Assembly: GCA_017625695.1 (NCBI GenBank) | Contig: JAGAKI010000076.1 | Span: 1-64,000, forward strand | DNA length: 64,000 nucleotides | Source: Clostridia bacterium | GTDB taxonomy: Bacteria; Bacillota; Clostridia; UMGS1840 | Direction of reading: 5' to 3' | In this document: piece by piece, positions 2,864-34,744 of the stretch | Layout of the letters: every line of letters begins with the position of its first letter | How positions within the stretch are numbered: the first letter of the stretch is position 1 | Made by a program: the position numbers and the translations under genes | Notes under the pieces: generated by a model | The model's input: the letters and a program-made list of their open reading frames with translations, nothing else | What the model was told of the DNA's origin: nothing | The model's database searches: none

Positions 2864-2877
2864 GTAAATGTCAAGAG

Positions 2878-2889
2878 TAAATGCGAAAA
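2878..2889 (+). repeat. Left terminal inverted repeat of the prophage
   Basis: TAAATGCGAAAA here is the exact reverse complement of 34721-34732 at the other end. A related TAAATG lies 12 bases before it (2865-2870). The site is 31 bases from the stop codon of the transposase gene, the usual place for an IS30-type terminal repeat. The exact match is short (12 bp), so its role as a transposase-binding site is inference. Confidence 0.55.
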
Positions 2890-2920
2890 TAATTGAAAAT
2901 ATTTTAATTTTATTCATTTT

Positions 2921-3952
2921 CTACAAAAGCGCCGCTATTTCATTGTTGAATAATTCAGCCGAACAGCGATAACCAAATATCCCGCGCGGGTAATTGTTTA
3001 TCCATTCATTAAGCTTTAATAATTCTTCGTCCGGGTACTTTTCGAAATTAGTTCCCTTCGGATAATGGCGGCGCGCCATTTTGTTTATATTCTCATTTGT
3101 TCCACGTTCCCAACTGCTGTAAGCGTGGCAATAATAAAATTGTGTGCGCTTTCCTCCAAAAATAGATTTTTCCATACCTTCAACGTCGGAAAACTCCGAA
3201 CCGTTATCAACTGTAATTGATTTGAATACAAGTGGGAAAAGATTTCGCCAATTCTTTTCTAATGCGTCAAGCGCTGCAACGACGTTTTCGGCCGTCTTTG
3301 CTTTTATAGGTATAACAATTTCGTCGCGCGTCTTCCGCTCCGATAACATAAGAAGGGTTTTGCGGCTTCTCTTTGCACCTTCGACGCAATCCATTTCCCA
3401 ATGGCCGAATTCTTCACGCGTTAATATTTCCGCGGGTCTGTTTTCGATACTTTCGCCCGCGCTGCGGCGCTTCTGCTTAACTCTGTTATAGTGGCGCTTT
3501 TTCTTTTTGCCTTTCACGGGCAAATTTTTATTTGTTAAGTGAAGGAATATCCCTTTTTCAATATAGCTGTATAAAGTGCTTACGGAAATAGTTGTATCAA
3601 AAACAAGCCCTTCCGCTTTGATTTCACCCAAAACAGCAGCGGGGGAATATTTGTCGTTTATTATTCTATCTTCTATATACTGCGAGAATTCCAAATCTGC
3701 GCCGATTTTAAGGTCTGCGCCTTTGGCTGCGAGGTTCGCGCGGTATTTTTCTTCGGCGATGTCCGGGCTGTATCTTTCTTCAAACGTCCAATCGCTGTTT
3801 TTATGCTCATAGCGGCCGCGGCCGATTTCCCTATATATAGAAGAAATATGCTTATGAAGAAGCCCCGCAATTTCGCGCGGTGTTTTTCCTGCTCTTATAT
3901 ACGCTTCAAGCTTTAATCTGTCGTCGCGTGTAAAATGTTTGAAATTACGCAT
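2921..3952 (-). CDS. IS30-family DDE transposase, probable phage integrase
   Basis: 343 residues, full length for the family. The N-terminal HTH_38 domain (about 5-45, FTRDDRLKLEAYI) should bind the element ends. The rve-type catalytic core carries D188 (HWEMDCVEG), D249 (TVDNGSEF) and E282 (WERGTNEN), with the 33-residue D-E spacing of IS30, followed by the signature RRHYPKGTNF. Start ATG 3952 with AAAGGAGG upstream. The gene is intact. It lies at the extreme left end of the prophage with no private inverted repeats around it, so it probably moves the whole phage. A free-living IS inserted at the edge is the alternative. Confidence 0.9.
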   Translation of the reverse strand: MRNFKHFTRDDRLKLEAYIRAGKTPREIAGLLHKHISSIYREIGRGRYEHKNSDWTFEERYSPDIAEEKYRANLAAKGADLKIGADLEFSQYIEDRIINDKYSPAAVLGEIKAEGLVFDTTISVSTLYSYIEKGIFLHLTNKNLPVKGKKKKRHYNRVKQKRRSAGESIENRPAEILTREEFGHWEMDCVEGAKRSRKTLLMLSERKTRDEIVIPIKAKTAENVVAALDALEKNWRNLFPLVFKSITVDNGSEFSDVEGMEKSIFGGKRTQFYYCHAYSSWERGTNENINKMARRHYPKGTNFEKYPDEELLKLNEWINNYPRGIFGYRCSAELFNNEIAALL

Positions 3953-3976
3953 TGAATATTCCTCCTTTGTAAAAAA

Positions 3977-4002
3977 ATAACCCCGCTTCGCTGCGGGGTT
4001 AT
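3977..4002 (-). terminator. Terminator between the small left-end operon and the transposase
   Basis: A perfect 10-bp stem, ATAACCCCGC and GCGGGGTTAT, with a 6-base loop. On the minus strand the stem runs into a stretch of seven Ts, so it ends leftward transcription after the gene at 4011. The transposase starts 25 bases further on, so it would be expressed only by read-through, a plausible way to keep transposition rare in the lysogen. Confidence 0.75.
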
Positions 4003-4010
4003 AAAAACGC

Positions 4011-4187
4011 TTATTTGTTATTTGCTGCTATGTCGGCCCGTATAAGTTGCTTAATATACCCGGCCTTGTTCGGTACGCTTTCAAGCTTCTTTATGATGTC
4101 GGCTTCGGTGGTAACAATGCAATCAATTTTAAATTGCTTTTTATTCTTTTTTGCGTATCGCTCCTGCGGCGTTATTTTACGTTCCAT
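4011..4187 (-). CDS. Small phage protein with a conserved DNA-binding-like fold, unknown
   Basis: 58 residues from ATG 4187, with GGGGGTG 6 bases upstream; a GTG three codons earlier is less likely. The pattern ERYAKKNKKQFKID, then ADIIKKLESVPNKAGYIKQLIRADI, resembles short proteins found beside repressors in Clostridia mobile elements, some thought to be ribbon-helix-helix-like. I cannot assign a function. It is the last gene of a leftward three-gene unit ending at the terminator 3977-4002. Confidence 0.65.
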   Translation of the reverse strand: MERKITPQERYAKKNKKQFKIDCIVTTEADIIKKLESVPNKAGYIKQLIRADIAANNK

Positions 4188-4202
4188 AATAAGCACCCCC
4201 GT

Positions 4203-4370
4203 TTAAAATAATTCGTTTTCTGCTATATATTTTTTAAGGTCGTCGAAAGTTCCGCATACTTCCTTCGGGATATTATAAGAAACACCCATTTTTGAAACGT
4301 CGGTTTTTACATTCCATTGCTTCGCGGTTTCTGTAACGATATAGGCGCGGCCGTCCTTTTCAATTCTCAT
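4203..4370 (-). CDS. Small phage protein, unknown
   Basis: 55 residues from ATG 4370, with GGAGGAATTAAGCGT upstream. The sequence reads as a soluble alpha-beta peptide (KDGRAYIVTETAKQWNV, then a C-terminal helix DDLKKYIAENELF). I recognise no family. It lies 15 bases upstream of the gene at 4011-4187 on the same strand. Codon use is like that of the rest of the prophage. Confidence 0.55.
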   Translation of the reverse strand: MRIEKDGRAYIVTETAKQWNVKTDVSKMGVSYNIPKEVCGTFDDLKKYIAENELF

Positions 4371-4630: not shown

Positions 4631-4659
4631 ATTATAACATAGTCGTACGCCTATGTCAA
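4631..4659 (-). promoter_or_regulatory. Leftward promoter with palindromic operator
   Basis: On the minus strand, TTGACA (4654-4659) and TATAAT (4631-4636) are separated by 17 bases. The spacer and its edges form a near-perfect 20-bp palindrome (4637-4656, ACATAG-TCGTACGC-CTATGT, 18 of 20 positions symmetric). A repressor bound there would block both hexamers. It drives the small genes at 4597-4011 and, by read-through, the transposase. Confidence 0.75.
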
Positions 4660-4726: not shown

Positions 4727-4981
4727 TTATTCGTTTTCGGCTTCCTCCGCAAGAAGCCACGCCGTTTCAACCTTTAATACTTTTGAAAATACCTTCAATT
4801 CGTAGTCGGTAACGAAGCGCGTTCCGATTTCTATTCTTGAAATGCTGTCCCGCTCTATAATTACGCCGTTAATCTGCATTTGCGCCGCAAGGTCGGATTG
4901 TGTTAATTGCCGCTTGAAGCGCGCTTCCCGTATGCGACGGCCGCAAATATTCTTTTTCCCGTTATAATCGTATATTTTCAT
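4727..4981 (-). CDS. XRE-family phage repressor
   Basis: 84 residues, ATG 4981 with GAAGGGA upstream. A single helix-turn-helix domain (CGRRIREARFKRQLTQSDLAAQM, then DSISRIEIGTRFVTDYELKVFSKVL) fills the protein. There is no C-terminal peptidase or dimerisation domain of the LexA/CI type, so it is a small Cro/CI-like regulator. It is divergent from the channel gene and faces dyad sequences at 5011-5070, the likely operators. It is the best candidate for the lysogeny repressor. Confidence 0.85.
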   Translation of the reverse strand: MKIYDYNGKKNICGRRIREARFKRQLTQSDLAAQMQINGVIIERDSISRIEIGTRFVTDYELKVFSKVLKVETAWLLAEEAENE

Positions 4982-5070: not shown

Positions 5071-5161
5071 GATAAGAATTTAACGTTTTTAGTTGAAAAC
5101 GCCGACTTCTTTTCATATAATATTTTATAACGTATTAAATAATTGCGAAAGAAGGTACATT

Positions 5162-5968
5162 ATGAAGAATTTGAAACAATGGGTTTTTTGTATGCTGCAA
5201 CCCGACGAAAAAGAAACAAAAGCAGAAAAAATATTCGATGTTTTTATAATATCGCTTATTATAATAAATGTTGTAATGGTTATTGCCGATACATTTTCAC
5301 TTCCTGCCGCTGTAAAAACGGCCTTTGAATATTTGGAATTTGTATCGGTAATTGTATTTACGATTGAATATTTATTGCGTCTATGGACGGCGCGGCTTTT
5401 ATATCCGGGCTTATCCGCTCCGCGCGCATACATAAAATACATATTTTCATTTATGGCAATTATCGACTTGTTGGCAATCCTGCCTTTTTACCTCCCTTAC
5501 ATATTCCCGATTGATTTAAGGGTGTTAAGAACGCTTCGTATTGTGCGGCTGTTCCGCTTATTCAAGGTAAACCGCTATACGAATTCGCTTTCGCTTATAG
5601 CAAAGGTATTTAAAAGCAAAGCAAGCCAACTTGTTTCGTCGGTTTTCGTTGTGGGGCTTCTTATGGTTATTTCTTCCGTATTGATGTATAGTATTGAAAA
5701 CCCCGTACAACCCGACGTATTCAAAAATGCTTTTTCGGGTCTTTGGTGGGCGGTTGCAACATTTACAACGGTTGGTTATGGCGATATATACCCAATAACG
5801 GGAGCGGGTAAAATATTAAGCGCTATTATTGCAATGTTGGGAATTGGCCTTGTTGCAGTTCCGACGGGTATTATTTCAGCGGGCTTCATTGAAAACATTT
5901 CGGAAGAAGAAGCAGCGGAAGAAGAAAAGAAACATTATTGTCCTTACTGTGGAAAAAAGATTGACTAA
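5162..5968 (+). CDS. Voltage-gated potassium channel (six-helix, Kv type) with zinc-ribbon tail
   Basis: 268 residues from ATG 5162 (GAAAGAAGG upstream); a longer frame from 5093 lacks a ribosome site. Helices S1-S3 lie at about 28-115. S4 has Arg at every third position (R120, R123, R126, R129, R132). S5 is followed by a pore loop with the K+ selectivity filter TVGYGD (203-208), then S6. The C-terminus is acidic and ends in CPYCGKK, half of a zinc ribbon. It is the only clear plus-strand gene in the prophage, with its own promoter, so it is probably a lysogenic-conversion gene acting in the host membrane. Confidence 0.92.
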   Translation: MKNLKQWVFCMLQPDEKETKAEKIFDVFIISLIIINVVMVIADTFSLPAAVKTAFEYLEFVSVIVFTIEYLLRLWTARLLYPGLSAPRAYIKYIFSFMAIIDLLAILPFYLPYIFPIDLRVLRTLRIVRLFRLFKVNRYTNSLSLIAKVFKSKASQLVSSVFVVGLLMVISSVLMYSIENPVQPDVFKNAFSGLWWAVATFTTVGYGDIYPITGAGKILSAIIAMLGIGLVAVPTGIISAGFIENISEEEAAEEEKKHYCPYCGKKID

Positions 5969-5974: not shown

Positions 5975-6012
5975 AACGGCGACGGGGTTTTCCCGCTGCC
6001 GTTCTTTTTTTA
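5975..6012. terminator. Bidirectional terminator between channel and endolysin genes
   Basis: The stem AACGGC..CGGG (5975-5986) pairs with CCCG..GCCGTT (5992-6003), with T-runs on both outer sides. It serves the rightward channel gene and the leftward late operon ending at 6010. Confidence 0.8.
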
Positions 6013-6747
6013 TTTTCCCGTAATATATCTTATGGCATTACGAACCATTATTGCAACGTCGCCGCGCTTGATGTTATCGTCCGGGCGAAAATTTCCGTTT
6101 CCGTCGCCGTTCACAATACCCATTTTAAAAAGGTCATTTATTGCCGCTTCTGCATAATGTCCCTTTGCGTCTTTGAACCCTGCCGCCGCCGTTTCTGTTT
6201 TGGCAAGTCCGAAGCCCGACGCAATACCGTTTACAATAGCGTCTATAACTTCGGCTTTTTTCTGCTGATACAAATTCACGTCGTCGCGGTCGTCGATGAA
6301 GCAAACTTCAATCAGCGCATAAGATACGCCGTAATTTTTCTTGCAAACATTCATATTTCGCAAATCGGAACGACGTTTAACGCCCCTATTTTTGAAGCCA
6401 AGCGCTGCAATATTGCTTAAAATAGCTTCTTCGACGCTTGCGCCGCTCTCTGTGGTATGTATAAGAATTTCCGCGCCCGTTGTTTTGCCGTTTCCTGCTG
6501 TATCGGCTGCCGCTGCGTTGAAATGAATTTCGAATACATAATCATAATTTGCAAAATTGCATACGCCGCCATTTTTCAAATATGAATACATATTCTTTGA
6601 TGTGTCGAACAAATCGACATCGGCGTACGCTTTAAGCTTCGGAAGAAGGGCGGCCGCAACCTCTCTTGTTAAGTCGGCTTCTTTAAGGCCGCAAGCGCAC
6701 GCGCCGGGGTCGCCGTTTCCGTGTCCTGCAATCAATAATATTTTCAT
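6010..6747 (-). CDS. Endolysin: N-acetylmuramoyl-L-alanine amidase (Amidase_3) with SLH domain
   Basis: 245 residues. The N-terminal amidase has the zinc-site pattern: His in IAGHGNGD, Glu in LKEADLT, His in FEIHFNA, and catalytic Glu in ALIEVCFID. It cleaves the amide between MurNAc and the stem peptide. After about residue 185 comes an SLH module (FKDAKGHYAEAAINDLFKMG, then NFRPDDNIKRGDVA) that should bind secondary wall polymer. No signal peptide, so it needs the holin encoded just upstream (4-base overlap). It is the last gene of the late operon. Confidence 0.93.
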   Translation of the reverse strand: MKILLIAGHGNGDPGACACGLKEADLTREVAAALLPKLKAYADVDLFDTSKNMYSYLKNGGVCNFANYDYVFEIHFNAAAADTAGNGKTTGAEILIHTTESGASVEEAILSNIAALGFKNRGVKRRSDLRNMNVCKKNYGVSYALIEVCFIDDRDDVNLYQQKKAEVIDAIVNGIASGFGLAKTETAAAGFKDAKGHYAEAAINDLFKMGIVNGDGNGNFRPDDNIKRGDVAIMVRNAIRYITGK

Positions 6748-7211
6748 TCTTTTTTGTCCTCCGTTATATTTTCTGTTTTAGATTGTACCGCTGCCGCTGC
6801 AACCTCTAAACCCTTTGTAAGAAAAACAGGAACGTCCACGCCCAAAATAACAAGGTTTTCAAGGATTGAACGAATTTCGTTAATAATAAAGGTTGCAAGA
6901 GTAAACCAACCGAGCATTTCGACGAACGCAAGGTTTATTCCGATATTTGTTCCCATTTCTTCAAAGGATAAGGCGATAAAGAAGGCAATATCAATTACAA
7001 CCCAATATCCAACCTTTTTTATAATGCCTTTTAAGCCTTTGTTTGAATTTTCCTTCTTTGAAAAGCGGGCTTTTGCAACTCCCGTTATGTAGTCAACTAC
7101 ATTAAGGACGAAGAAGGCCACAAACAAGAACCAAAATTCCCCGAATGTGGAAGCGAACAGCGCAACGGCTGCGCCCCATAATGTATTCATTTTATTTGCG
7201 ATTTTTTCCAT
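6744..7211 (-). CDS. Phage holin (toxin secretion/phage lysis holin family)
   Basis: 155 residues with about three membrane helices (20-45, 70-90, 100-125) and a charged C-terminal tail (SKTENITEDKKE). The pattern FFVLNVVDYITGVAKARFSKKENSN is typical of the holin_4_1/TcdE-like family. It forms membrane lesions that release the amidase encoded next. Start ATG 7211. Confidence 0.92.
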   Translation of the reverse strand: MEKIANKMNTLWGAAVALFASTFGEFWFLFVAFFVLNVVDYITGVAKARFSKKENSNKGLKGIIKKVGYWVVIDIAFFIALSFEEMGTNIGINLAFVEMLGWFTLATFIINEIRSILENLVILGVDVPVFLTKGLEVAAAAVQSKTENITEDKKE

Positions 7212-7354: not shown

Positions 7355-7711
7355 TTATTCACCCCCTGCAATAACTGCGATAACTTCTTCAAGGGCTGCG
7401 CCCATAATTTCATTATCAGCTTTAAGCGACGCGATTTCTTCTTCAAGCGTCTTTTTTTCTGCTGCGGCATTTTCTGCAGCGATAGCAGCCGCTAACCACG
7501 CCGCGCGGTTGTCCTTTACTTCCTGCGATAAGTTTTCGCGGAAAGGAACGTTTATTCTGTGTTCGTCGTATGTGTAATATGTCGAAGTTTCTTCCGTTTC
7601 GGGGTCTTTGCGGGTATGCTTCTTTATATTTTCATACAAAACGACTTCGGCCGTACCTCCGCAATTTTCAACATAATACGATTTCGGCTTGATTGTGCTT
7701 TCTGCTTGCAT
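7355..7711 (-). CDS. Phage tail-associated protein, unknown, with C-terminal coiled coil
   Basis: 118 residues, ATG 7711 behind a perfect AAAGGAGG. The N-terminal part is beta-rich (SYYVENCGGTAEVVLYENIKKH). From about residue 68 it is an Ala/Glu-rich coiled coil (AAEKKTLEEEIASLKADNEI). It overlaps the 3' end of the reverse transcriptase gene by 44 bases. Position between fibre/DGR and holin suggests a minor tail or fibre-assembly role; that is inference. Confidence 0.75.
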   Translation of the reverse strand: MQAESTIKPKSYYVENCGGTAEVVLYENIKKHTRKDPETEETSTYYTYDEHRINVPFRENLSQEVKDNRAAWLAAAIAAENAAAEKKTLEEEIASLKADNEIMGAALEEVIAVIAGGE

Positions 7712-8735
7712 AGCTTACAACCTCCTTTAATTGCTTTATATTTACATATGGTTTTATGTATTTGCAATAAAAGTAATATGAATTACTGTGTTTTATCCAA
7801 CCCATATAACTTAATATTGCGCGTGCGTCCGACAACGACGGCTTCGGCTTTTTGGAAGCCCGCTTCACCCGGCGGCGTATTCTTAAAGAATTTTTGCGCC
7901 GTAATGTTGTTTTGTTTCGATAGAAGCGGAAGCCCAAGAAATCAACCGGGCGTTCATCGACGCGGAACACTTGCCAATTTTCTTTTAAGGTTAAGCCCAA
8001 AGGCTTTATATATTCCGCGATAAGTTTTCGCGCTTTGTGTAACTGCTTCTTATTGTTAGAAAATAACGCCATATCGTCCATATAACGAAGATAATGTTTT
8101 ATACGCAATTCTTCCTTGATATAGTGGTCTAAACCCTGCAAATAGAAATTCGCCCACCATTGCGAAGTATAATTGCCGATTGGTAAGCCTTCGGCGTGGC
8201 TGTCGATTATGCAATCAATAAGCCATAATGCCGACGGGTCTTTGATTTTCCTTCGGAATTGTTCTTTTAATACTTCGTTGTCAATGTGTGGATAATATTT
8301 CTTTATATCCAACTTTAAGCAATATTTTGTATGCTTTCTGTCTTTGCGCAACCACTTTTCAAGATACCGTTTCCCGTAATGTACGCCGCGGCCCGGTATG
8401 CTTCCGCAACAAAATTCATACATACCCTTCATTATAACGGGCTGCAGCACTTGCATTAAAGCCCAATGTATAATTTGGTCGGGGTAGTAGGCGGGACAAA
8501 ATATTGTACGTTCCTTTTGACGTGGCCCGTCTTTTATTACGAAGGTTCGGTACGGCTTCGGTTTATACGTTTTATTTATAAGCATATCCCGTATAAGTCC
8601 TGCGGCCTTGTCTTGATTTTCTAAAACATAAGCAACCGTCCTTCGGCTTTTCTTCCCGCGGGCTGCGTTTATGATAGCTTCGTGTATATTATCAATATCG
8701 CATATTTTTTCAAATAGGTTTCCCGCTCTTTTCAT
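7668..8735 (-). CDS. DGR reverse transcriptase
   Basis: 355 residues from ATG 8735 (AAGAAAG upstream). The frame stays open to 8921, but that part overlaps the template repeat, so the shorter start is preferred. RT motifs: first catalytic Asp in KLDIKKYYPHID (D143), IGNYTSQWWANFYL (186-199, the SQ-type motif 4 diagnostic for DGR enzymes), catalytic YMDD (218-221), and FLGFRFY. It copies the template RNA with errors at adenines and the cDNA replaces the variable region. No Avd accessory gene is adjacent. Confidence 0.95.
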   Translation of the reverse strand: MKRAGNLFEKICDIDNIHEAIINAARGKKSRRTVAYVLENQDKAAGLIRDMLINKTYKPKPYRTFVIKDGPRQKERTIFCPAYYPDQIIHWALMQVLQPVIMKGMYEFCCGSIPGRGVHYGKRYLEKWLRKDRKHTKYCLKLDIKKYYPHIDNEVLKEQFRRKIKDPSALWLIDCIIDSHAEGLPIGNYTSQWWANFYLQGLDHYIKEELRIKHYLRYMDDMALFSNNKKQLHKARKLIAEYIKPLGLTLKENWQVFRVDERPVDFLGFRFYRNKTTLRRKNSLRIRRRVKRASKKPKPSLSDARAILSYMGWIKHSNSYYFYCKYIKPYVNIKQLKEVVSYASRKHNQAEIVLC

Positions 8736-8846
8736 CGGTTCAGCTTCTTTCTTAATTATCTGCAAGGCTTTCAATTTCTTACTAACCCCGCCCGTAGCGA
8801 TGTATTTTTGCCAAGCGGCAAGGGAAATAACACGCGATGAATGTAT

Positions 8847-8963
8847 TAAGATAGACGCGCGCGGCGATTGACATTCGTATTCGAAGGCGCATTGTTGCAA
8901 TTCCAATAACACGGCCCGCAATTAGCCCCATTGTTCCAATTGCCGCCGACATTCGCCGCGTTT
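8847..8963 (-). repeat. DGR template repeat (TR)
   Basis: 117 bp aligned without gaps to 9021-9137 (offset 174). It contains 29 sense-strand adenines. The copy at 9021-9137 differs at 19 positions and all 19 are among these adenines (plus-strand T at 8852, 8868, 8869, 8875, 8880, 8881, 8892, 8893, 8896, 8902, 8907, 8922, 8923, 8931, 8932, 8934, 8952, 8961, 8963). In the target frame the template is full of AAC/AAT codons. It lies between target gene and RT on the same strand. Confidence 0.96.
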
Positions 8964-9010: not shown

Positions 9011-11311
9011 TTAACGGCGGTAAGAAAGACGCGCGCGGCGAAGGACATCCGTACGCGAAGGCGCAACGTAGCAATACCAAAAACACGGCCCGCAAGAAGC
9101 CCCACCGGTCCAATTGCCGCCGACACTCGCCGCGGTAAGCGCGGCACGCGGGTAATAATAGTAATCGGCATAATATGTCGTTGTCGAAGCGCCGATTTCG
9201 CAAGGAATACGAAGGAACGGGAAACGTTCATCATAACCAAGCTTTTTAGCGTACCCGTCGGCCGTCGGTAACTGATAATTTACTTTCACATAATCGTCCG
9301 TTATGCTGCCGCTGCTGTATTTGGTAGCGTCGGGCAAGAAGTAAATATCATATTTGTACGGGTCTTCGGTCGTGCCGCTGCCCTCTCTCTTGAAAAGTAC
9401 GTCGGAAATCCACTCAAAAGCATTTCCGAACGGCGTTTCTTCGCCGCGGTATATACAAGTATATTTACCGTTTGTATTGGAAACGGGCGAACCCGAAGAA
9501 GATAAAACGTTATCGCAAGAACCCGTCTTCCACGCAATCGCAAAGACGATATTTCCGACCGCTATATTTACGGGGTCGCCGTCGAATGTAATTGCGCTGT
9601 TGCTATCGTCATAAACATCTATCGCGGTAACTGTTCTATTGTTTGCGACGTTTGTACTTCCGAGCGATGTTCCTATTGCGATACCTTGACCGATAACGTA
9701 CGCCGCCGCATAGCTGCTTGAAATTATAATGCGGTTGGCCGCTTCTTCCGCAACTGTTGCTTTGTGGCTTTCGCTGTATGAAAGTGAGGAACAACCCTTC
9801 ATTTTTGTTTGAATGTCGCGTGTCGCGAATTCAACCCACATAAGAAGGCATTTTACATACTGTTCGGCCGCTGTGGTCGTTGTGTATTTGTCGCCAAGCT
9901 TGCGGGCGTTTGACATACCCGAATTTAACGACATAATCGGCGTATATACACCGCTTCGGGAAGTTGGCTTGTCGTCAACTAACGCCATAGGATAAGCGGC
10001 GGTGTATGCTTTCTGTCGCAAGCTTCCGTCTGCGTTAATGTGTATCGGTGAAGGCTTGTAACCGCCTATCGGGTGCGCCGAAATTACGATTTCTTCGCTG
10101 CCGTCGTCATTGTATGTATGCAGATAATAGAATAAAGGTGTTTCAACCCACACTTCGCCGTTGCTGCCGTCGGTAGTGTAGCCGGGTTCGCCTTCATAAG
10201 CATTTACAACAAAGTTTCCGTTGTCGTCGAAATATCCGCAAGCACGTTTCCTTCCGCTCCACGGGTAAATATTGTCGAAATCGTTTGTTGCTGTTGCTGT
10301 GTCTGTGCCGACATTTGCAACAAGGCCGAAGGCGTTGTATAATCTTTGAACGGTTGCGCCGCTGTTTGCGCTGCCGCCGAATTTAACGCCGTAACGGGTA
10401 ACGGTTGAACCTTCAATTTCTGCAAGCGCATTTTCGGCCGCTGCCGCTGCTTCATTGGCTGCGGTTGTTGCCGCTTCCGCTTCGGCCGTCGCGGTCTGCG
10501 CGGCTTCGGTTGCTGTGTTAGCGGCTTCGGTTGCTGCTGCGGCTTCTTCTGTTGCCTTTTCGGTTGCTTCCTTTGCAGAATTTGCATTGTCGGCGGCCGT
10601 GTTCGCTGCATTGGCTGCGCCGCTTGCTGCTCCTGCGGCTGTATTTGCTGCCGAAGTTGCTTTTTCAGCGTTTGAAGTGGCCGTGTCTGCATTTTCTTTC
10701 GCAAGGTTTGCCGCTTCTGCTGCGTCGTTGGCTTCAATGGTAACGGCTGCCGCTGCTTCTTTTACGACATTTACGTCGGAAGCTGCTTCAATGGCTGCCG
10801 CTGCCGCTTCATCGGCCGCAAGTGTTGACGCTTCAACCCTTGCTTCAACCTCCGAAACATTTTCCAAAGCTTCGGAAGCTATTTCGCGGGCTGATTGTGC
10901 GAGCGCTTCCGCTTCGGCGATTACGTTAAATTCATTAGTGCTTTTTACTTCTGTATCGTTGGCGCTTTTGGCTGTTACCTTTACAACGAAAGGAACGCTT
11001 GTTAATTCGCCGCCTTCGGAAGAATAAAGCGTAATTTGACAACGAACATTGCCGCATACGGCAAGGGTCTGTTTTGTAAGTTCTGCAATAATTGCCCCGT
11101 TTTCGTCTATGGTGCAATTATTAAGAATTGCTTTGCCGTCGGGCTTCTTGCCGCGAAGAACAGCCGTTGCCCCTGCGGGGATTTCGTAAGGCTGATTATT
11201 CGCAAGCAAAATTACTTTTATTTTTCGGCCGACATCGCTTTGAACCGCTGTTATGTATTCAAAAAGCATTTCGCCCGATAATTCGACGGTAATTTCCTTT
11301 ATGAATTCCAT
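9011..11311 (-). CDS. DGR-diversified baseplate/receptor-binding protein with BppU-like N-terminus
   Basis: 766 residues. Residues 1-115 resemble the BppU N-terminal baseplate domain (IKEITVELSG, then KIKVILLANNQPYEIP). About 130-300 is an Ala/Glu-rich coiled coil that probably trimerises. The remainder is Gly/Asn/Thr-rich and ends in a C-type-lectin-like fold typical of DGR targets (NAFEWISDVL, then GGNWTGGASCGPCFWYC). The last 42 or so codons are the variable region. It probably contacts the host surface. Start ATG 11311, three bases after the upstream gene. Confidence 0.9.
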   Translation of the reverse strand: MEFIKEITVELSGEMLFEYITAVQSDVGRKIKVILLANNQPYEIPAGATAVLRGKKPDGKAILNNCTIDENGAIIAELTKQTLAVCGNVRCQITLYSSEGGELTSVPFVVKVTAKSANDTEVKSTNEFNVIAEAEALAQSAREIASEALENVSEVEARVEASTLAADEAAAAAIEAASDVNVVKEAAAAVTIEANDAAEAANLAKENADTATSNAEKATSAANTAAGAASGAANAANTAADNANSAKEATEKATEEAAAATEAANTATEAAQTATAEAEAATTAANEAAAAAENALAEIEGSTVTRYGVKFGGSANSGATVQRLYNAFGLVANVGTDTATATNDFDNIYPWSGRKRACGYFDDNGNFVVNAYEGEPGYTTDGSNGEVWVETPLFYYLHTYNDDGSEEIVISAHPIGGYKPSPIHINADGSLRQKAYTAAYPMALVDDKPTSRSGVYTPIMSLNSGMSNARKLGDKYTTTTAAEQYVKCLLMWVEFATRDIQTKMKGCSSLSYSESHKATVAEEAANRIIISSSYAAAYVIGQGIAIGTSLGSTNVANNRTVTAIDVYDDSNSAITFDGDPVNIAVGNIVFAIAWKTGSCDNVLSSSGSPVSNTNGKYTCIYRGEETPFGNAFEWISDVLFKREGSGTTEDPYKYDIYFLPDATKYSSGSITDDYVKVNYQLPTADGYAKKLGYDERFPFLRIPCEIGASTTTYYADYYYYPRAALTAASVGGNWTGGASCGPCFWYCYVAPSRTDVLRRARLSYRR
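9021..9137 (-). repeat. DGR variable region (VR) at the 3' end of the target gene
   Basis: Gapless match to the template 8847-8963. In protein terms 12 residues differ, 11 Asn and one Tyr in the template: Asn to T, S, T, G, S, Y, Y, V, R, D, L and Tyr to F; the framework GGNW, CGPC, APS and RRARL is kept. The GC-rich block at the sense 3' end (9030-9040, identical in both copies) is where an IMH-type initiation site would lie. Confidence 0.95.
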
Positions 11312-11627: not shown

Positions 11628-13055
11628 TTATAAACTGTCTATCCAACCGTTAATACATTCCGCAAGTGTAGTTATATACCACCCGTACACATAATCGCCG
11701 GGGGTTTTTTCGGTTATTCCCGTCGAGTAGTGCGAACCTATGTTATAACGTAATGAATTGAATTTCGCTGCTGTTAAGGTTTTGTCGCTTGATGTCATTT
11801 TTGCAGCGGCGAAGGTGGTATAAGAAGCGTCCCAACTGTCGCCCGTTGCGTCCAAAATTTCTTTTACCTTGTCAACTAAATCATTCCAAACAATATAGGA
11901 AAAGTCCGTTACATATCCTTTGTTCGTAATTGCGGTATATGCTTTTTGTGTTTGGGAAGCTGTCGCATTGTTATTCGATTTCGTCCAACTCCATTTTTCA
12001 ACGTCAACCGCTTTTGCGGGGGGTTGTATATATAAGTCAATAGCGCCCGTTGCCGCTCCTCCTGCTTCGCAAATCCATATATAATAGGTTGTACCCGCTG
12101 TTACGTTATATGATATTGCGAAATTGTCGCCCGGGCCGGAATATCCGTCTTCGACAAGCCAATTTGTCGGTTCGCCCGTTTCGCTGTCAAAGGTGCTTGA
12201 AGTGCTTAAATAGCCCCAAGTGTCGTAATCTCCCATAGTGAAGAAGTTTGCTGTTCCGCTATTTTCGAAGCTAACCGAATAACGTTGCATTTGTTTTTCG
12301 CCAAGAATAAAACTAACGTGGTTTTCTTCCGTTCCGAGAGTTCCCAAAAATCCCGTTGTTAGCGTCCAAGGGGAAGGCGGGGGGTCTATATATAGCGTTG
12401 TGCTTCCCGAATTATCGCCAAAATAACATCTTACCCATATATAATATTGCGTACCCGCTGTTACGTTATATGATATAAAAAAGTTTGGTGCGCCGTTGCT
12501 GTCGTCGTCTTTTTTTAGCCAATTTGTCGGTTCGCCCGTTTCGCTGTCAAAGGTGCTTGAAGTGCTTAAATAGCCGAGTGTGTCAATTATTGTCCCTTGT
12601 GTGTAAAAATTAGCTTTGCCGCTTCTTTCAAAACTTACTTTGTACCGATATATCGTATAGTTAGATACGCTTATTTTTTTTGTGTAGTTCGTTGAAATTT
12701 GGCCGATTGTTGAAGATGTAACGCCCCAAGTTGGTTCGGGGTCGGGTTCTTCGCCGCCGCTGTAAGTTCCTTCGGCGCGTATATAGATGTCAGCGCCGCC
12801 CGAATATGTAAAGGGATTGTCGTAACTGTATTGTACCGCTGCCGACGTGCTTCCTATTCTGTAAACCCAACGGACGAATTCGCACCCTTCCGCGGGGTTT
12901 GCGGTGAAGCGCGTTGACCAATTATCACCAAGCCCGCTAATTGATTTGTAGTCGTCGCCGTACGACCCGATGTATGTTTGCCCGATGTAGGAAACATACA
13001 TCGTTGTAGTGGCGATTGTTTCGTCTTGAAAATAGCAAGTAAATTTATAACTCAT
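11628..13055 (-). CDS. Tail fibre-like protein with duplicated PPC-like beta domains
   Basis: 475 residues from ATG 13055 (AGGTGG upstream); a TTG six codons earlier was rejected. After an N-terminal domain (about 1-105), two domains of about 120 residues follow, each with GYLSTSSTFDSETGEPTNW, a D-rich loop and SYNVTAG.YYIWV, resembling bacterial pre-peptidase C-terminal sandwiches. The C-terminal 120 residues are unrelated. The two domains share identical DNA stretches 360 bp apart (12157-12215 and 12517-12575), indicating a recent duplication. Confidence 0.8.
   Translation of the reverse strand: MSYKFTCYFQDETIATTTMYVSYIGQTYIGSYGDDYKSISGLGDNWSTRFTANPAEGCEFVRWVYRIGSTSAAVQYSYDNPFTYSGGADIYIRAEGTYSGGEEPDPEPTWGVTSSTIGQISTNYTKKISVSNYTIYRYKVSFERSGKANFYTQGTIIDTLGYLSTSSTFDSETGEPTNWLKKDDDSNGAPNFFISYNVTAGTQYYIWVRCYFGDNSGSTTLYIDPPPSPWTLTTGFLGTLGTEENHVSFILGEKQMQRYSVSFENSGTANFFTMGDYDTWGYLSTSSTFDSETGEPTNWLVEDGYSGPGDNFAISYNVTAGTTYYIWICEAGGAATGAIDLYIQPPAKAVDVEKWSWTKSNNNATASQTQKAYTAITNKGYVTDFSYIVWNDLVDKVKEILDATGDSWDASYTTFAAAKMTSSDKTLTAAKFNSLRYNIGSHYSTGITEKTPGDYVYGWYITTLAECINGWIDSL
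12091..12575 (-). repeat. Internal 360-bp duplication in the fibre-like gene
   Basis: Identical blocks: 12091-12116 with 12451-12476 (26 bp), and 12157-12215 with 12517-12575 (59 bp). Both pairs have the same 360-bp offset, so the period is exactly 120 codons. The DNA between the blocks has diverged. Confidence 0.85.
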
Positions 13056-25369: not shown

Positions 25370-27031
25370 TTACGCTGCGTTATTTTCAAGCTGTTTTCCG
25401 ATTTCGGAAAAATACTTGCTTCGTACCGTCATAGCGTCTATAACAGAAACAAAACCGTCTATACGCATACGCGGTTCAATTTTAACGGGCTTCATTCTGC
25501 CGTCGCTGCTGTTGATTTGAACAGCGACATTCAGCAAATGCGACTTTAACAAATTATTTTCGCCGATATTGATTTTTCGGTCTTTGATAATTCCTTCAAA
25601 TTCTTTCAAAAGCGGCGAAAGGTTTGTGCCTTGAAAAACGTCGTCCATATGGAAGCCCGATTGCGCCATTTCTTGTATTAAGTATTGCGCCGAATATCTG
25701 TCATAACCGACCTTCAAAGGCCGTATTTTGTAGTGTTTTATAAGCGTAACGAACCAATTAAACACGTCTTTGTAATCAACGTAATGTTCGCCCGATAAAG
25801 TCAACAAGCCTTGCTTTTGGTAAATGCTGTAAGGTACGTTGTCTTCTTCGCAAGCTTTGTCGAACCGCTCTTGCGGCATAAAGAATTGTGTAAATACATA
25901 CAGTTTTTTTGATTTTTCAATAACGATTGAAGCGGCCGTAAGGTCGGTTGTTTGTGAAAGGTCAATACCTCCGACGCAATAACAGCCCTTGAAATCTTCA
26001 AGGGAATATTTTTCGCCCGAAACGTCGTCCACGTCTTGAAAATCAAGCCAAGCAACCGAAGAATTTTGCTTGATGTTACAATATTTCGTCATAAATTCCG
26101 CTTTTTTAGAAAGGGAATTGCGGGCCACTTTTATTTCCTCAATGTAAAAATCTTCGGAAACGGAAACGCCCATATTCGGATTTGATTTTTTTAATTCTTC
26201 GATGTCGTCCCATTTCTGCACATCGTCAATGATATACAAGAAGGGAAGCAAGCGCATTTCGTCGCCGCCTTTTAGAAAAGCGGTCGAACGTTTCATAAGT
26301 TCGTCATAAATTCCGTCGTTGACGTAACCCGCTGTTGCTATTGATAATATAAGCGGCTGTTTTCTTGCGCCAAACGCGGATTTCATAACTTCGTATTGCT
26401 TCAAGCCTTGTTCACCCGGCCAAGCTTCTATTTCGTCGCATACTGTTAAATGCGGGTTGAAGCCGTCCGACTTTTTGGAATTGAAGGCAAGGCGTTTTAT
26501 TGATGTATTAAGTTGCTGTATGTAGATGTCGGAACGACGCTTCTTTGTGAAGTCGGGGTCGCCGAGTTCTTCATCAGCTTGCACAATTTGGTAAAATGCG
26601 TCATATACAAGGTCGGCTTGTTCAAGCTTCGGCGCAAGGCAATATATTTTCGCGCCGTATTCGCCGTCAAGATATGCCATATATGCAATAATTGCAGCCG
26701 CAAAAAGGGTTTTTCCGTTCTTACGGGCGACAATTATAAACACTTCGCGGAATTGTCGGAAGCCGTCGCAATCTACTATTCCGAATATTGCCGAAACAAT
26801 GGATTTTTGCCATAATTCAAGCTTTAATAAATCGTTGCGGCCTTCGCTGTGGTGGCAAAAATTTTCGATGAATTTTATTGCTTTTTTTGCCTTTTTATCG
26901 TCGTAAAACCAAGTCTTATTTTCAATTCCGCGTATTAAAATATCAAAAATAAGCTTTATCCACACGCCGACGGTAACGCGCCCCGTCTCGATTGCGTCGC
27001 GGTATTCGTAAATATAATTTTTAGTCGTCAA
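25370..27031 (-). CDS. Terminase large subunit
   Basis: 553 residues. ATPase: Walker A-like VARKNGKT (about 101-108) and Walker B LTVCDEIEAW. The nuclease half contains Asp-based sites in CVGGIDLSQTTDLTA and VGYDRYSAQYLI, of the RNase H-like fold. It pumps DNA into the prohead and cuts it. The start overlaps the small-subunit stop by 11 bases. Confidence 0.96.
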   Translation of the reverse strand: MTTKNYIYEYRDAIETGRVTVGVWIKLIFDILIRGIENKTWFYDDKKAKKAIKFIENFCHHSEGRNDLLKLELWQKSIVSAIFGIVDCDGFRQFREVFIIVARKNGKTLFAAAIIAYMAYLDGEYGAKIYCLAPKLEQADLVYDAFYQIVQADEELGDPDFTKKRRSDIYIQQLNTSIKRLAFNSKKSDGFNPHLTVCDEIEAWPGEQGLKQYEVMKSAFGARKQPLILSIATAGYVNDGIYDELMKRSTAFLKGGDEMRLLPFLYIIDDVQKWDDIEELKKSNPNMGVSVSEDFYIEEIKVARNSLSKKAEFMTKYCNIKQNSSVAWLDFQDVDDVSGEKYSLEDFKGCYCVGGIDLSQTTDLTAASIVIEKSKKLYVFTQFFMPQERFDKACEEDNVPYSIYQKQGLLTLSGEHYVDYKDVFNWFVTLIKHYKIRPLKVGYDRYSAQYLIQEMAQSGFHMDDVFQGTNLSPLLKEFEGIIKDRKINIGENNLLKSHLLNVAVQINSSDGRMKPVKIEPRMRIDGFVSVIDAMTVRSKYFSEIGKQLENNAA

Positions 27032-29701: not shown

Positions 29702-30393
29702 AATACACCGCCTTTCACGTCTTCGACATAACACCAACTTTGCGGCGGCCTTTTTAATTTCGCCAAACACGGGTAACGCTCCACGACGAATTCGTTTAAT
29801 TCCTTCGGCTTATTGTAAATTACAAGGTCGGATATATGCCACCCGTAAAATGTGTAAAAGTTGAATTCTTTGTCGCCGATTATATATTCGGCTATTTCTT
29901 CGAAAGTAAGACAACTTTGTTTTAATAAACCTTCTTCTGGGATTTCGTCTTGTTCCATATCGTTTGAATACTCTGTAAATGACAAGGCGTGTTCGAATTC
30001 TTCGTCGTATATGTGCCTTCTAATGCTTTGATATAGTGTATTATTTTTGTCAAATCCTTCAATTTCGTATGTTCCGATTTCATCGCATACAAATTCGCCT
30101 ATTACTTTGCCGTTTAAAAAATTATCTTCGCAATACGGTTCGTCGCTGCACATCAATTCGCCCGAATATCCGTATTTAATTTTCCCGTTTGGCATACGGA
30201 AAAGGTCGTCAAGAGTTTCTACAATTCCCCCGTGTGTAAAACGTTGCTTTGCTTTTGTGCAATAAATATAACACTTGAAGGGCGGTTGAAGCTGCGGTTT
30301 GTTTTTTCGAATTTCGCGCGTTTTTATGTGATTTGCTACAAGTCCACACCATTTCGGCTGAACGCTAATAAGCACCGATTTTTCAATGTTCAT
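29698..30393 (-). CDS. ASCH/PUA-like phage protein
   Basis: 231 residues from ATG 30393 (GGAGGTAATGAGAAA upstream). MNIEKSVLISVQPKWCGLVANHIKTREIRKNKP and GKVIGEFVCDEI resemble the ASCH fold, an RNA/nucleotide-binding beta barrel; FYGWHISDLVIYNKPKEL closes the barrel. The middle is an acidic insert. Some ASCH proteins read or process modified bases, but no catalytic assignment is possible here. Confidence 0.7.
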   Translation of the reverse strand: MNIEKSVLISVQPKWCGLVANHIKTREIRKNKPQLQPPFKCYIYCTKAKQRFTHGGIVETLDDLFRMPNGKIKYGYSGELMCSDEPYCEDNFLNGKVIGEFVCDEIGTYEIEGFDKNNTLYQSIRRHIYDEEFEHALSFTEYSNDMEQDEIPEEGLLKQSCLTFEEIAEYIIGDKEFNFYTFYGWHISDLVIYNKPKELNEFVVERYPCLAKLKRPPQSWCYVEDVKGGVL

Positions 30394-31163
30394 TTTCTCA
30401 TTACCTCCGTTTCGTTTTTCTTGAACATCACGACGGACAAATACCAATGTCCGTTAAATTCATTGTATCGCGCGGCCGCTTCAATAAAGCGATAACCCTT
30501 GTAACGCTTTTCCCAATATGGCGCGTCGTCTATGTGTTCAGTTGCAAGGCGCTGTAAATGGCGCTTTGAGATTTTACCGTCTTTTGGTTTTGGTTCTTTC
30601 GGCTTGTCTAAATTTCGGGATTGCGCCCAACGTTTGCCGCCTTCGGGCTTCTTAACAAGATATTTCGCCAAAGCTTCGCACCCTTTTTCGTTGGGTTGTA
30701 ATCTGTCGGCGTTCGTCCAATCGCCAAAAGGCCACATTTCTTCGGCTGTATCTCTATCCATTGCGTTAGTAATCATATGAAAATGATACCGAACAAGGCC
30801 CGTTTTTTTACTTACCTTCGCTTCAATGACGTATATGTATTTCATTTCGGGCAAGCCCTGCTTTTCTCTATATCGCTTTATCCTGCGTATGTAATTTTGA
30901 ATATCCTTGCGGCATTGTTCTTCGGAAGAAGGCATTTCGCTGTCGCAATATGTGCCGTGTATAACAATATCGCCTTTTCCAAAATTCGCATTTACCAAAC
31001 GGACGATTTTTTTTCGGGCGTTCTTGTCGTTAAGGTTTGCTTGTTCCTTTGATGTTGGGCGGGTTTTCGGTTTTCTCTGCGGCATACGTCGGCCGTTGGG
31101 AAATACCGGGTAAAATTCCGCTTCATACATCGCGCCCGATATTATATTTTTTTCGCGTATCAT
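30390..31163 (-). CDS. HUH rolling-circle replication initiator
   Basis: 257 residues, ATG 31163. YVIEAKVSKKTGLVRYHFHMI gives the HUH metal motif (H127-F-H129), and EALAKYLVKKP the catalytic Tyr168 with Lys171, the layout of single-Tyr phage/plasmid Rep proteins. It should nick one strand at an origin and attach to the 5' end. No helicase, primase or polymerase is encoded in the phage, so it probably starts rolling-circle replication using host enzymes. A 426-base gene-free leader with hairpins lies upstream. Confidence 0.85.
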   Translation of the reverse strand: MIREKNIISGAMYEAEFYPVFPNGRRMPQRKPKTRPTSKEQANLNDKNARKKIVRLVNANFGKGDIVIHGTYCDSEMPSSEEQCRKDIQNYIRRIKRYREKQGLPEMKYIYVIEAKVSKKTGLVRYHFHMITNAMDRDTAEEMWPFGDWTNADRLQPNEKGCEALAKYLVKKPEGGKRWAQSRNLDKPKEPKPKDGKISKRHLQRLATEHIDDAPYWEKRYKGYRFIEAAARYNEFNGHWYLSVVMFKKNETEVMRK

Positions 31164-32631: not shown

Positions 32632-32844
32632 TCAATCCTCCTTTAATTTAACCATTGAAGGGTTTGTAATTGTTACGCTGTGTTTGCATTTGTCTAACAG
32701 CTCAAGCGTAAGTTGCATTTTGCCTTCGTCGTTAAGCCGATATATAAGCGCCGATATTTTTAAATACTCAATATCAAATCCGACATTTCGGGAAACGACC
32801 GGGACTTGCGCTTTAAAAGCTGCGATTGCTTCTTCTGTTGTCAT
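32632..32844 (-). CDS. Small phage protein, unknown
   Basis: 70 residues. Begins TTEEAIAAFKAQVPVVSRN and continues with a helical stretch (ISALIYRLNDEGKMQLTLELLDKC). The ATG at 32844 overlaps the stop of the upstream gene (ATGA), so the two are translationally coupled. Family not recognised. Confidence 0.65.
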   Translation of the reverse strand: MTTEEAIAAFKAQVPVVSRNVGFDIEYLKISALIYRLNDEGKMQLTLELLDKCKHSVTITNPSMVKLKED

Positions 32845-33428: not shown

Positions 33429-33631
33429 ATTTCGCCGTCGCTCCTTTCTTTAGTGCGCTTCCTCCTGCAATCGGGGCATTTTAATTCATTTTTTCCAACG
33501 CTCCAATTCTTTTTACGCAATAAGCTTGTCAAACACGATACGCCACAACCACCCACGGCGATAATTTCTTTTTTGTCGCACACGCTGCATATTGCAACCG
33601 TTACCGTGTTTTCAACGAGTGATTTTAACAT
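33425..33631 (-). CDS. Small zinc-ribbon phage protein
   Basis: 68 residues from ATG 33631. Two Cys pairs, CSVCDKKE and CPDCRRK, with intervening cysteines in GGCGVSCL, suggest zinc binding. Basic tail (RRKRTKERSDGE). A longer frame to 33745 overlaps the upstream gene and was rejected. Function unknown. Confidence 0.65.
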   Translation of the reverse strand: MLKSLVENTVTVAICSVCDKKEIIAVGGCGVSCLTSLLRKKNWSVGKNELKCPDCRRKRTKERSDGEI

Positions 33632-34080
33632 TATTCGTCGCCGTCCTCTCTGTCGATGTCGCGGGGCATAATTGCCGCGAGTAAGTCGCCGTAATCGTCT
33701 AATACACAAACGGGCTTTTTGTGGCCTTCGCCAATAAATAAGCAAGTTTTGTAATCTTTGACGAATTTGTCTTCAATCCATATAGAACATACGCCGTCGG
33801 GGGAAAGTAAGCGTCTATAAGATTTGCTTTTGCGTTCGTCCGCTCTTATTTCTTCGGTCGGTCTTAATTCGCGGCCGTTCAAAGCGTCCCTTAAAACATT
33901 CTTTAATTTATCCGACGGGGCGCATTTGGTAATATCAAATTTGATTTGTTCTTCCGAGAAAATAAACAGCCTTACGCCGTCGGTAAATACGAAACGTTTA
34001 TCGTCTAACTTTTCATAAGAAACGGCGTTGCCCTTCAACAACCTTTCGAATATGTACTTTTGGTTTTTAATTGATAACAT
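33631..34080 (-). CDS. Phage protein, unknown
   Basis: 149 residues. LSIKNQKYIFERLLKGNAVSYEKLDDKRFVFTDGVRLFIF at the start; later YRRLLSPDGVCSIWIEDKFV and an acidic C-terminus (PRDIDREDGDE). Soluble alpha-beta protein with no recognised domain. Its stop overlaps the next start by one base. Confidence 0.65.
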   Translation of the reverse strand: MLSIKNQKYIFERLLKGNAVSYEKLDDKRFVFTDGVRLFIFSEEQIKFDITKCAPSDKLKNVLRDALNGRELRPTEEIRADERKSKSYRRLLSPDGVCSIWIEDKFVKDYKTCLFIGEGHKKPVCVLDDYGDLLAAIMPRDIDREDGDE

Positions 34081-34092
34081 TTTTTATTCCTC

Positions 34093-34383
34093 CTAAATAA
34101 TTCTTTCGATAACATCTATCGCCATAACGCCCAAACTGTCGCCCGTTACATTTACATCGTAATAGCTGCCGCCGCTATAATGTACGCGGACGTATTCAGC
34201 CGAACCACGTTGCAAGCGTTCCGCAACTTCGATTGTTGGGTCAATCTTTGAAAGAAGGGCGCTTAATTCGCCTTCTATAAAATGCAGCCGCAAAAGTTTA
34301 TCGGCTTCGGCTTTGGCTTCCTTTTTTTCTTCGCGGGCTTCTGCCGCTTCGCGAAAGTAAGAAGCGATTTTCCTAAATAACAC
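34093..34383 (-). CDS. Small phage protein, unknown
   Basis: 96 residues. A charged coiled coil (REAAEAREEKKEAKAEADKLLRLHF), then a short beta part (EYVRVHYSGGSYYDVNVTGDS). Second gene of the early operon, 11 bases after the HTH gene. No family recognised. Confidence 0.6.
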   Translation of the reverse strand: MLFRKIASYFREAAEAREEKKEAKAEADKLLRLHFIEGELSALLSKIDPTIEVAERLQRGSAEYVRVHYSGGSYYDVNVTGDSLGVMAIDVIERII

Positions 34384-34394
34384 ATTATCACCCC

Positions 34395-34664
34395 TTACGC
34401 ATTTGCGACGGCTGCTTCTTCAAGATTGCGGCCGCGGTTCTTTAAACTTTCGGTTGTTTTACGCTGTGCAAGTTCGGCGCTATATTCGGAACGCAAGTTC
34501 TTGTCAAGCGCTCCCGTGTCGCCCCGCTGCAATTCTTTGTAAATTGTAGCCGTGTGAACGCCCAAGCTGTCGGCGATGTCCGAAGGGCGTTCGTTGTTCA
34601 AGTACATTTCTTCAAGCTTCTTTCTGTCCTCATAGGTCAAAAGCTTGTATTTTTTTCTTGCCAT
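34395..34664 (-). CDS. Stand-alone HTH_38 DNA-binding protein, paralogue of the transposase N-terminus
   Basis: 89 residues, ATG 34664, GGAGGTGTGAAGCACT upstream. YKLLTYEDRKKLEEMYLNNE.PSDIADSLGVHTATIYKELQRG aligns over its length with FKHFTRDDRLKLEAYIRAGK.PREIAGLLHKHISSIYREIGRG of the transposase at 2921, and the following YSAELAQRK with YSPDIAEEK. No catalytic domain follows. It is the first gene at the right end, directly beside the 12-bp inverted sites 34697-34730. Likely roles: early-operon autorepressor, or helper/inhibitor at the element ends. Confidence 0.8.
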   Translation of the reverse strand: MARKKYKLLTYEDRKKLEEMYLNNERPSDIADSLGVHTATIYKELQRGDTGALDKNLRSEYSAELAQRKTTESLKNRGRNLEEAAVANA

Positions 34665-34696
34665 AGTGCTTCACACCTCCAAAAAATATAAAAAAT

Positions 34697-34732
34697 AATG
34701 CGAAAAGACGTTGTAAAATCTTTTCGCATTTA
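34697..34732. repeat. Right-end paired inverted sites, including the right terminal repeat
   Basis: AATGCGAAAAGA (34697-34708) and TCTTTTCGCATT (34719-34730) are perfect inverted copies 10 bases apart. The outer one extends to TTTTCGCATTTA (34721-34732), the exact reverse complement of the left-end site 2878-2889. A minus-strand -10 box (TATAAT, 34733-34738) precedes them, so they cover the start region of the early transcript. Confidence 0.65.
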
Positions 34733-34744
34733 ATTATACAATTT

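Follow-up and report, generated by a model that had tools for sequence, protein, structure and literature searches.

The prophage, its transposase and its ends

We analysed a window of 64,000 nucleotides (the whole stretch, positions 1 to 64,000 of contig JAGAKI010000076.1 of assembly GCA_017625695.1) from a Clostridia bacterium. It holds a tailed prophage of 32 kb that spans positions 2863 to about 34747, is bounded by terminal inverted repeats, and carries at its left edge a gene for a transposase of the IS30 family. A preliminary description of the locus had proposed that this enzyme serves as the phage integrase. The features that bear on this proposal lie at the two ends of the element. 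We call the transposase side the tail end and the opposite side, marked by a small helix-turn-helix (HTH) gene, the head end.

2846 to 2863, no strand: left copy of an 18-bp direct repeat within which the target-site duplication of 14-15 bp lies; the final base is shared with the phage end; identical to 34745-34762
2863 to 2889, plus: tail-end terminal inverted repeat, 27 bp, containing the 12-mer discussed below; identical to the opposite end at 20 of 27 positions; boundary from relatives L004 and L062
2869 to 2874, minus: −35 half (TTGACA, 6 of 6) of a split junction promoter, reading outward
2921 to 3952, minus: IS30-family DDE transposase, 343 aa, outermost left gene; intact open reading frame with a profile match (phrog_4646)
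4631 to 4659, minus: separate consensus promoter, scoring 12 of 12, directed at the transposase
34395 to 34664, minus: small protein of 89 aa with an HTH_38 match, related to the N-terminal DNA-binding domain of the transposase but standing alone, at the opposite phage end
34690 to 34730, minus: terminator-like hairpin with a T tract, −16.0 kcal/mol by folding; its 5' arm is the terminal repeat
34721 to 34747, minus: head-end terminal inverted repeat, 27 bp, pairing with the tail-end repeat
34733 to 34738, minus: −10 half (TATAAT, 6 of 6) of the split junction promoter, reading inward
34745 to 34762, no strand: right copy of the 18-bp flanking repeat, identical to 2846-2863 and overlapping the phage end
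34773 to 34801, plus: host tRNA-Thr promoter (TTGACA, 17 bases, TATAAT), the likely target, about 25 bp from the phage end; the tRNA lies at 34817-34892

The transposase is encoded by an intact frame of 343 codons and scores 220.7 bits against the NCBIfam IS30 equivalog model NF033563 (cut-off 80). IS30-family enzymes have a D-D-(33)-E triad, and this spacing is found here: D188, D249 and E282, the residues named in the preliminary description, are invariant in all 17 aligned transposases. A search of PDB sequences gave one weak match, covering 44 N-terminal positions. The host genome encodes a single copy of the enzyme, the next best match being 31% identical, and thus no identical 1.1-kb insertion sequence (IS) was found elsewhere in it. 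The statement that the element lacks a tyrosine or serine recombinase was also upheld. None matched at E ≤ 0.001 among 38 of the 39 listed phage genes (38 on the minus strand and one on the plus strand), which were scanned against Pfam, PHROGs or both; the sole listed gene outside these scans is a 70-aa open reading frame at 32632-32844. No MuA-type transposase was found among the same 38 genes.

We placed the ends of the element by comparison with relatives. On the left, two of them depart from the window at the identical base, 2863. The first (L004) is a viral contig, 98.7% identical to the window over 8467 bp, with unrelated DNA beyond 2863; it shares these 8.5 kb on the transposase side, and a further 2.6 kb toward the phage interior has no match to the window. 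The second (L062/G099) is a contig of a metagenome-assembled genome from water buffalo colon, in which an unrelated flank starts at the equivalent of 2863. Its phage has a mean identity of 94.3% to the window phage over 24,964 of 31,885 bases (78% of the phage), and on the right side the similarity stops at 34747. This puts the right end at about 34747; the flanking repeat runs over the end, so that the position could be off by up to 3 bp. The left boundary given previously (2864) was right to 1 bp, but the right one (34739) fell about 8 bp short. The positions proposed for an inverted pair of 12-mers were borne out: the window contains just two exact copies of the 12-mer, 2878-2889 on the plus strand and 34721-34732 on the minus strand, and with two mismatches permitted its count matches chance. 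The pair does not, however, mark the termini of the element, as it is subterminal and makes up the inner portion of the imperfect 27-bp repeats.

Since the flanks differ and the base of divergence is common, the window phage, L004 and L062/G099 are close relatives at three unrelated sites. The transposase-side ends of these relatives are 97-99% identical to that of the window. The transposase stands at the edge of related phages in two other sites with different flanks, and it is the whole phage that is bounded by the repeats, which supports the role of the IS30-type enzyme as integrase. Four genomes of the same genus all lack the phage at this site, with about 150 bases from 34745 onwards being 90-96% identical. 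We also sought the empty site in the genome of G099, a different host, and obtained only partial matches to the host flank of the window. These partial matches, together with related phages in unrelated flanks, suggest transfer between different hosts, as reported for Faecalibacterium phage FP_Lagaffe (hereafter Lagaffe; PMC5883640; for this and the other cited papers our statements refer to excerpts of the text).

Free form, target duplications and insertion sites in the family

Profile scans with the 17-row alignment retrieved 558 relatives of the transposase in genome contigs and 265 in viral contigs, not every one of which need be a phage, and we analysed the best 80 of each. Of the viral contigs, 49 extend for 600 bp or more behind the transposase, and in 28 of these an HTH_38 gene is found within the first 1 kb; no such gene lies there in any of 79 genomic loci (a count that includes a few duplicates, e.g. 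L033 and L105). An HTH profile search of 50 of the 80 genome-contig loci, from 47 genomes, yielded 27 pairs of HTH and transposase genes on the same contig. In all 27 the HTH gene comes first and both genes are on one strand, with a span of 30.5-49.6 kb in 24 pairs and of 5.5, 9.6 and 21 kb in the others. The difference in gene order between viral and genomic sequences indicates that one prophage end follows the transposase, that the other precedes the HTH gene, and that the free form joins the two. Viral contigs and complete genomes have the ends joined, with host DNA absent at the join; genomes recorded as complete (Lagaffe, nd12, nd4, and Dulem virus 34, marked circular) hold the joined ends inside the genome. 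The elements of 5.5 and 9.6 kb (L319, L320) share both types of end, HTH and transposase, with the phages and are likewise flanked by long repeats; they may be satellites or deleted phages.

The join itself is precise. In six related viral contigs it varies within 60 bp at two bases only (AA, TT, TA, GT, TC and CA); over the stretch compared, 254 of 1948 gap-free columns are variable in the same contigs. A pattern scan permitting 0-20 bp between the ends returned exactly these six contigs, every one with 2 bp, and a pattern scan of the viral contigs for a related phage group gave no match. A spacer of 2 bp is the trace expected if, as in IS30, one end attacks at a distance of 2 bp beyond the other. 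Terminal inverted repeats of IS30 measure about 26 bp. Repeats of about this length (27 bp, 20 identical) are present in the window phage, and the circle with a 2-bp spacer in its six relatives.

The flanking direct repeats are longer than this spacer. With end positions such as its relatives have, the 18-bp repeat of the window reads as a duplication of 14-15 bp. The end regions came from 27 prophages and the window, 28 in total, and a seed search paired the ends in 22. A direct repeat of at least 14 bp was found at the ends of 19 of these 22 (raw lengths 14-24 bp, 15 bp being the commonest, n = 7); it is missing in G114, whose contig stops at the head end, and in G108 and G116. In 462 mismatched pairings of ends from the 22, the longest repeat was 13 bp and all others were at most 10 bp. 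When ends were allowed to lie within one base of the positions usual in the family, 18 of the 19 can be read as exactly 15 bp, the other (G135a) as 14 bp. Of the six prophages left unpaired by the seed search, five show repeats of 14-17 bp (the mismatch control covers the 22 only); in the sixth, G140, the contig stops after 593 bases of tail stretch, within which we located no phage end. Overall, direct repeats of about 15 bp enclose 24 of the 28 prophages with both ends, window included, and the repeated sequence is different at each insertion site. Stand-alone IS relatives of 1.2 kb, 36-38% identical to the window transposase, occur in plasmids of Bacilli. Two of the five examined (L324 and L332; in Macrococcoides, 1255 bp, and in E. 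gallinarum, 1221 bp) have flanking repeats of 14 and 13 bp, and the three others gave nothing clear. The long duplication may therefore be a trait of this IS30 branch that is not confined to the phages.

Insertions occur at a preferred distance from host promoters. For target scoring we used 60 of the 82 tail sides, the rest lacking either the TTGAC motif required by the filter or 140 bases of flank. The host promoter score, taken by distance from the phage end, peaks at 25-27 bp on either side. At 24-27 bp, 23 of the 60 tail flanks and 11 of the 19 head flanks reach at least 9 of 12; the corresponding means for other 4-bp windows are 0.33 (tail) and 0.13 (head). Both flanks and a repeat are available for 19 prophages, and in 17 of them such a promoter lies at 23-28 bp on one side and not on the other; four of the five further prophages with repeats have one at 22-29 bp, bringing the total to 21 of 24. 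The phages thus insert about 26 bp from the −35 box of a host promoter, in either orientation. At 22-28 bp neither of the two plasmid ISs with repeats shows a promoter, though a sample of two is too small to conclude from. Joining the flanks restores open frames of 305 and 455 codons in G109 and G132, and G117 lies in a frame of 603 codons, yet a promoter of score 9 is present there.

A promoter split between the ends and its possible role

Transposase-side ends carry TTGACA or a near form pointing outward, and HTH-side ends carry a TATAAT-like box pointing inward. When the ends are joined, the −35 and −10 boxes come to lie 17-18 bp apart (the commonest layout being 6 + 2 + 9 bases = 17) and are aimed at the phage operon. 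In the window phage both halves are perfect and 32 kb apart in the prophage, the join being deduced from its two ends. Across 30 junction regions, several of which are near-copies, the best promoter scores 8-12 of 12, and 26 of 30 score at least 10, compared with 185 of 3000 shuffles. In the integrated state this promoter is taken apart: in 21 prophages the host DNA at the place of the −35 box matches 1-4 of 6 positions, against 5-6 of 6 at the tail end. Inside the window phage one promoter in the direction of the operon scores at least 11, the 12-of-12 promoter before the transposase.

A hairpin is predicted after the −10 box in all 22 head ends, with the terminal repeat as its outer stem. 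A T tract follows in 19 of 22; it is absent in G141, and G114 and G101 were not judged. A transcript starting 7 bases past the −10 box would lose the outer stem, which in the window takes the predicted energy from −16.0 to −7.3 kcal/mol. Two further genes enter the interpretation:

4727 to 4981, minus: HTH_19 repressor-like protein, 84 aa; profile match
30390 to 31163, minus: replication initiation protein (Rep; REP_ORF2-G2P, phrog_3584); profile matches

Taken together, comparison over the family makes it probable that the window phage is a composite, in which a tailed-phage genome uses an IS30-type transposition module as its integrase, with a circular form, promoter-targeted insertion and control by a junction promoter. 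The repeats, the circle, the targets and the junction boxes are the parts of this composite supported by the sequence comparison; the regulatory steps we infer from them. For the window phage itself, circularity, promoter use, termination, copy-out and the role of the HTH protein are likewise deduced. The transposase would be expressed from its own promoter, which adjoins the repressor-like gene, and would form the circle through IS30-like copy-out. The assembled junction promoter would then activate the phage operon, so that circle formation may switch on the lytic genes. The transcript of the circle would begin inside the hairpin stem and, because it starts there, escape the terminator by which host read-through would be stopped. 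Rep would replicate the circle and the terminase package it. Integration would disassemble the promoter and therefore help to silence the prophage. The small HTH protein may bind the same terminal repeats as a regulator or accessory factor.

A stronger version of this proposal, somewhat short of an even chance in our view, makes integration itself the lysis-lysogeny switch. Copy-out would produce the circle while the donor prophage is kept, the circle alone would have a strong operon promoter and escape from the terminator, and the HTH protein would tune the process. The circle would re-enter at a fixed distance upstream of sigma-A promoters and therefore rarely break genes, the choice of target being perhaps guided by RNA polymerase or by promoter DNA.

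Several observations weigh against the composite or parts of it. Exact pattern scans of viral contigs found neither the right end of the window phage nor its circle junction, and in the four same-genus genomes the A-tract is too diverged for the empty site to be read at base level. No HTH gene was seen behind the transposase in 21 of the 49 viral contigs. Among the prophages, G108 lacks a flanking repeat and G116 has one of only 8 bp, while G109, G132 and G142b have no target promoter scoring at least 9. The junction promoters of L163, L193, L008 and Lagaffe are weak (8-9 of 12), that of Lagaffe being equalled by 36 of 100 shuffles, and in L008, L013 and L014 the best-scoring pair of boxes lies away from the expected place. 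In G142a and G141 the truncated transcript retains much of its folding energy. Seven sites in the operon direction score 10 of 12 inside the window prophage (the one at 34507 falls in the HTH gene); such sites could allow operon expression that does not depend on the junction. Finally, the repressor-like gene suggests that classical repression operates as well.

The last two points also favour the alternative that survives best, although we regard it as rather unlikely: the junction promoter and hairpin would be leftovers of an IS30-type ancestor, and an ordinary repressor with other promoters would decide between lysis and lysogeny. The Pjunc promoter of IS30 serves its transposase (PMC9333248), and the two plasmid ISs of 1.22-1.26 kb share the junction layout. 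Against mere inheritance, the boxes and their spacing of 17-18 bp are kept in most junctions of relatives that are at least 40% diverged in the transposase, and this even though the first downstream gene is no longer the transposase. Moreover, the window phage has no site scoring at least 11 ahead of its 30-kb operon.

Much less probable is a Mu-like cycle, in which the transposase would also replicate the phage lytically and host DNA would be packaged with the ends. A transposase at one end and many different insertion sites fit such a cycle. The 28 of 49 viral contigs mentioned above, Lagaffe, nd12, nd4 and Dulem virus 34 do not, since they have the HTH gene behind the transposase and no host DNA; nor does the presence of a Rep protein. 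Lagaffe virions have cos ends, and it is the virions of Mushu, a Mu-like phage from the same strain, that contain host DNA (PMC5883640). We give equally little credit to a site-specific recombination with the 15-bp repeats as its att cores, or to their presence at the sites before insertion. The repeats are indeed direct, and empty sites are unread at base level (for G132, nine genomes including its own gave no congener match). Their sequence differs per site, however, and the junctions hold 2 bp and not 15. In G132 the phage splits a permease frame whose halves overlap by 8 residues, and three paralogues (23-30% identical) align across the junction with no change in length if one copy is counted, which is weak evidence for a duplication. 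That an ordinary IS30 copy landed by chance at the edge of an integrase-less prophage is scarcely credible: IS30 copies within prophages do exist (phiPV83 record), but here the repeats and duplications bound elements of mostly 30-50 kb, and in a tree of 48 transposases the 40 tailed-phage sequences form one group against five IS sequences with a support of 100/100 (a filamentous-phage sequence and two others fall on the phage side). In the family, the unit bounded by inverted repeats and a duplication is the entire phage and not a 1.1-kb IS.

Other phage genes and comparison with known systems

The remaining features describe the phage as cargo of the module.

5093 to 5968, plus: ion-channel protein (Ion_trans), the only listed plus-strand gene; profile match
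6010 to 7211, minus: amidase endolysin with an S-layer homology (SLH) domain, plus holin; profile match
7668 to 8921, minus: reverse transcriptase of a diversity-generating retroelement; template repeat (TR) at about 8963-8882, variable repeat (VR) at about 9137-9056
9011 to 11311, minus: BppU-type tail protein, target of the retroelement; profile match and repeat scan
13066 to 27031, minus: tail, Dit, tape measure, connector, HK97 capsid, protease, portal and terminase large subunit; profile matches

The Ion_trans gene lies in the lysogeny region and is a candidate for lysogenic conversion; the segment 4700-5965 has no match in the related G099 prophage. The S-layer homology domain is borne by the endolysin amidase (6010-6747). 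The VR lies at the 3' end of the BppU-type gene, and a 70-bp comparison of TR and VR gave 11 mismatches, all at template adenines. These repeats were located by an adenine-aware scan, a blastn search for retroelement repeats having given no match. The gene at 11628-13073 holds two near-identical 70-bp stretches at 12146-12575 with five mismatches; the adenine-aware scan also picked up this tandem-like pair, which we take for a gene-internal repeat. The replication initiator at 30390-31163 is of the ORF2/G2P type, which is typical of small rolling-circle phages and is here found in a tailed phage.

IS30-type transposases are also found in small filamentous phages, whose DNA is single-stranded. 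Those of bajarodino virus 13 (L330, PQ006184) and Spiroplasma R8A2B are 41% and 29% identical to the window enzyme, respectively, and the module is thus found in two phage realms. Among tailed phages, the preliminary description had called an IS30-type integrase rarely described, which agrees with the literature: for Lagaffe (MG711461), an active tailed phage, the integrase was reported to be an IS30 transposase (Cornuault 2018, PMC5883640). Tailed phages with such integrases are therefore not new. Like the window phage, Lagaffe has the transposase (57% identical) with an HTH gene directly after it (60-64% identical) and the junction between, a reverse transcriptase, a tailed genome and direct-repeat flanks. 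The window phage shares with it an IS30 transposase as the only integrase (within the 38 of 39 genes scanned) and an HTH_38 gene across the junction. Lagaffe differs in being 48 kb long and classed as a myovirus type, and in its weaker junction promoter. It is known from free virions with cos packaging (PMC5883640), whereas the window phage is known from its sequence. The direct repeats surprised the authors of that study, and would be explained by a duplication of the kind described here. The excerpts of their paper make no mention that we found of a junction promoter, promoter targeting or repeat length. A phage of F. prausnitzii described in 2026 as the first lytic one and said to lack an integrase, FP01, has a gene list in which an IS30 transposase is followed, three genes further, by an HTH protein of COG2826 (PMC13432834), an order that fits this module. 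Since they lack the usual integrase, phages of this class could be classified as lytic or as 'carrying an IS'. We found no published description of duplications of about 15 bp for prophages of this family, and none of the 2-bp circle joins, the split promoter, the promoter targeting or the relative of the HTH domain at the opposite end; a literature search for such a junction promoter of a phage operon also found no paper. The analysis provides a full testable anatomy (ends, junction, duplication, target rule and candidate switch) for a large and little-noticed class of gut phages.

IS30 of E. coli forms circles with joined ends, attacks at 2 bp, expresses its transposase from the junction promoter Pjunc and produces a 2-bp duplication (PMC9333248). 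The window phage resembles it in transposase family, terminal repeat length, a circle with joined ends, a junction promoter and the 2-bp spacing. IS30, in contrast, has a single gene, directs Pjunc at the transposase and targets hot spots or its own repeats, and its duplication is 2 bp, not about 15 bp. The window phage is in this sense a giant IS30-like transposon with a phage as cargo, of the IS30 family by its protein and departing from it as an element by its duplication. It links the biology of ISs, with their junction promoters, to the control of phage lysogeny. A split promoter that would be complete only in circular virus DNA may act as an on/off switch. Mu-like phages such as Mushu also use a transposase as integrase, but theirs is a Mu-type enzyme, with replicative lytic transposition and host DNA in the virions (PMC5883640). 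The TnGBS conjugative elements encode a Mutator-type transposase and insert 15-17 bp upstream of −35 boxes (PMC3942029). They share with the window phage a large size, a DDE transposase, a circle and a fixed distance upstream of sigma-A promoters, with a peak at 25-27 bp in the phages. They differ in transposase type, in moving by conjugation and not in virions, and in the distance itself (PMC3942029); the window phage has an IS30 profile and phage structural genes in place of a Mutator-type enzyme and conjugation genes. It thus adds an IS30-type enzyme to the Mutator-type ones for promoter-targeted integration.

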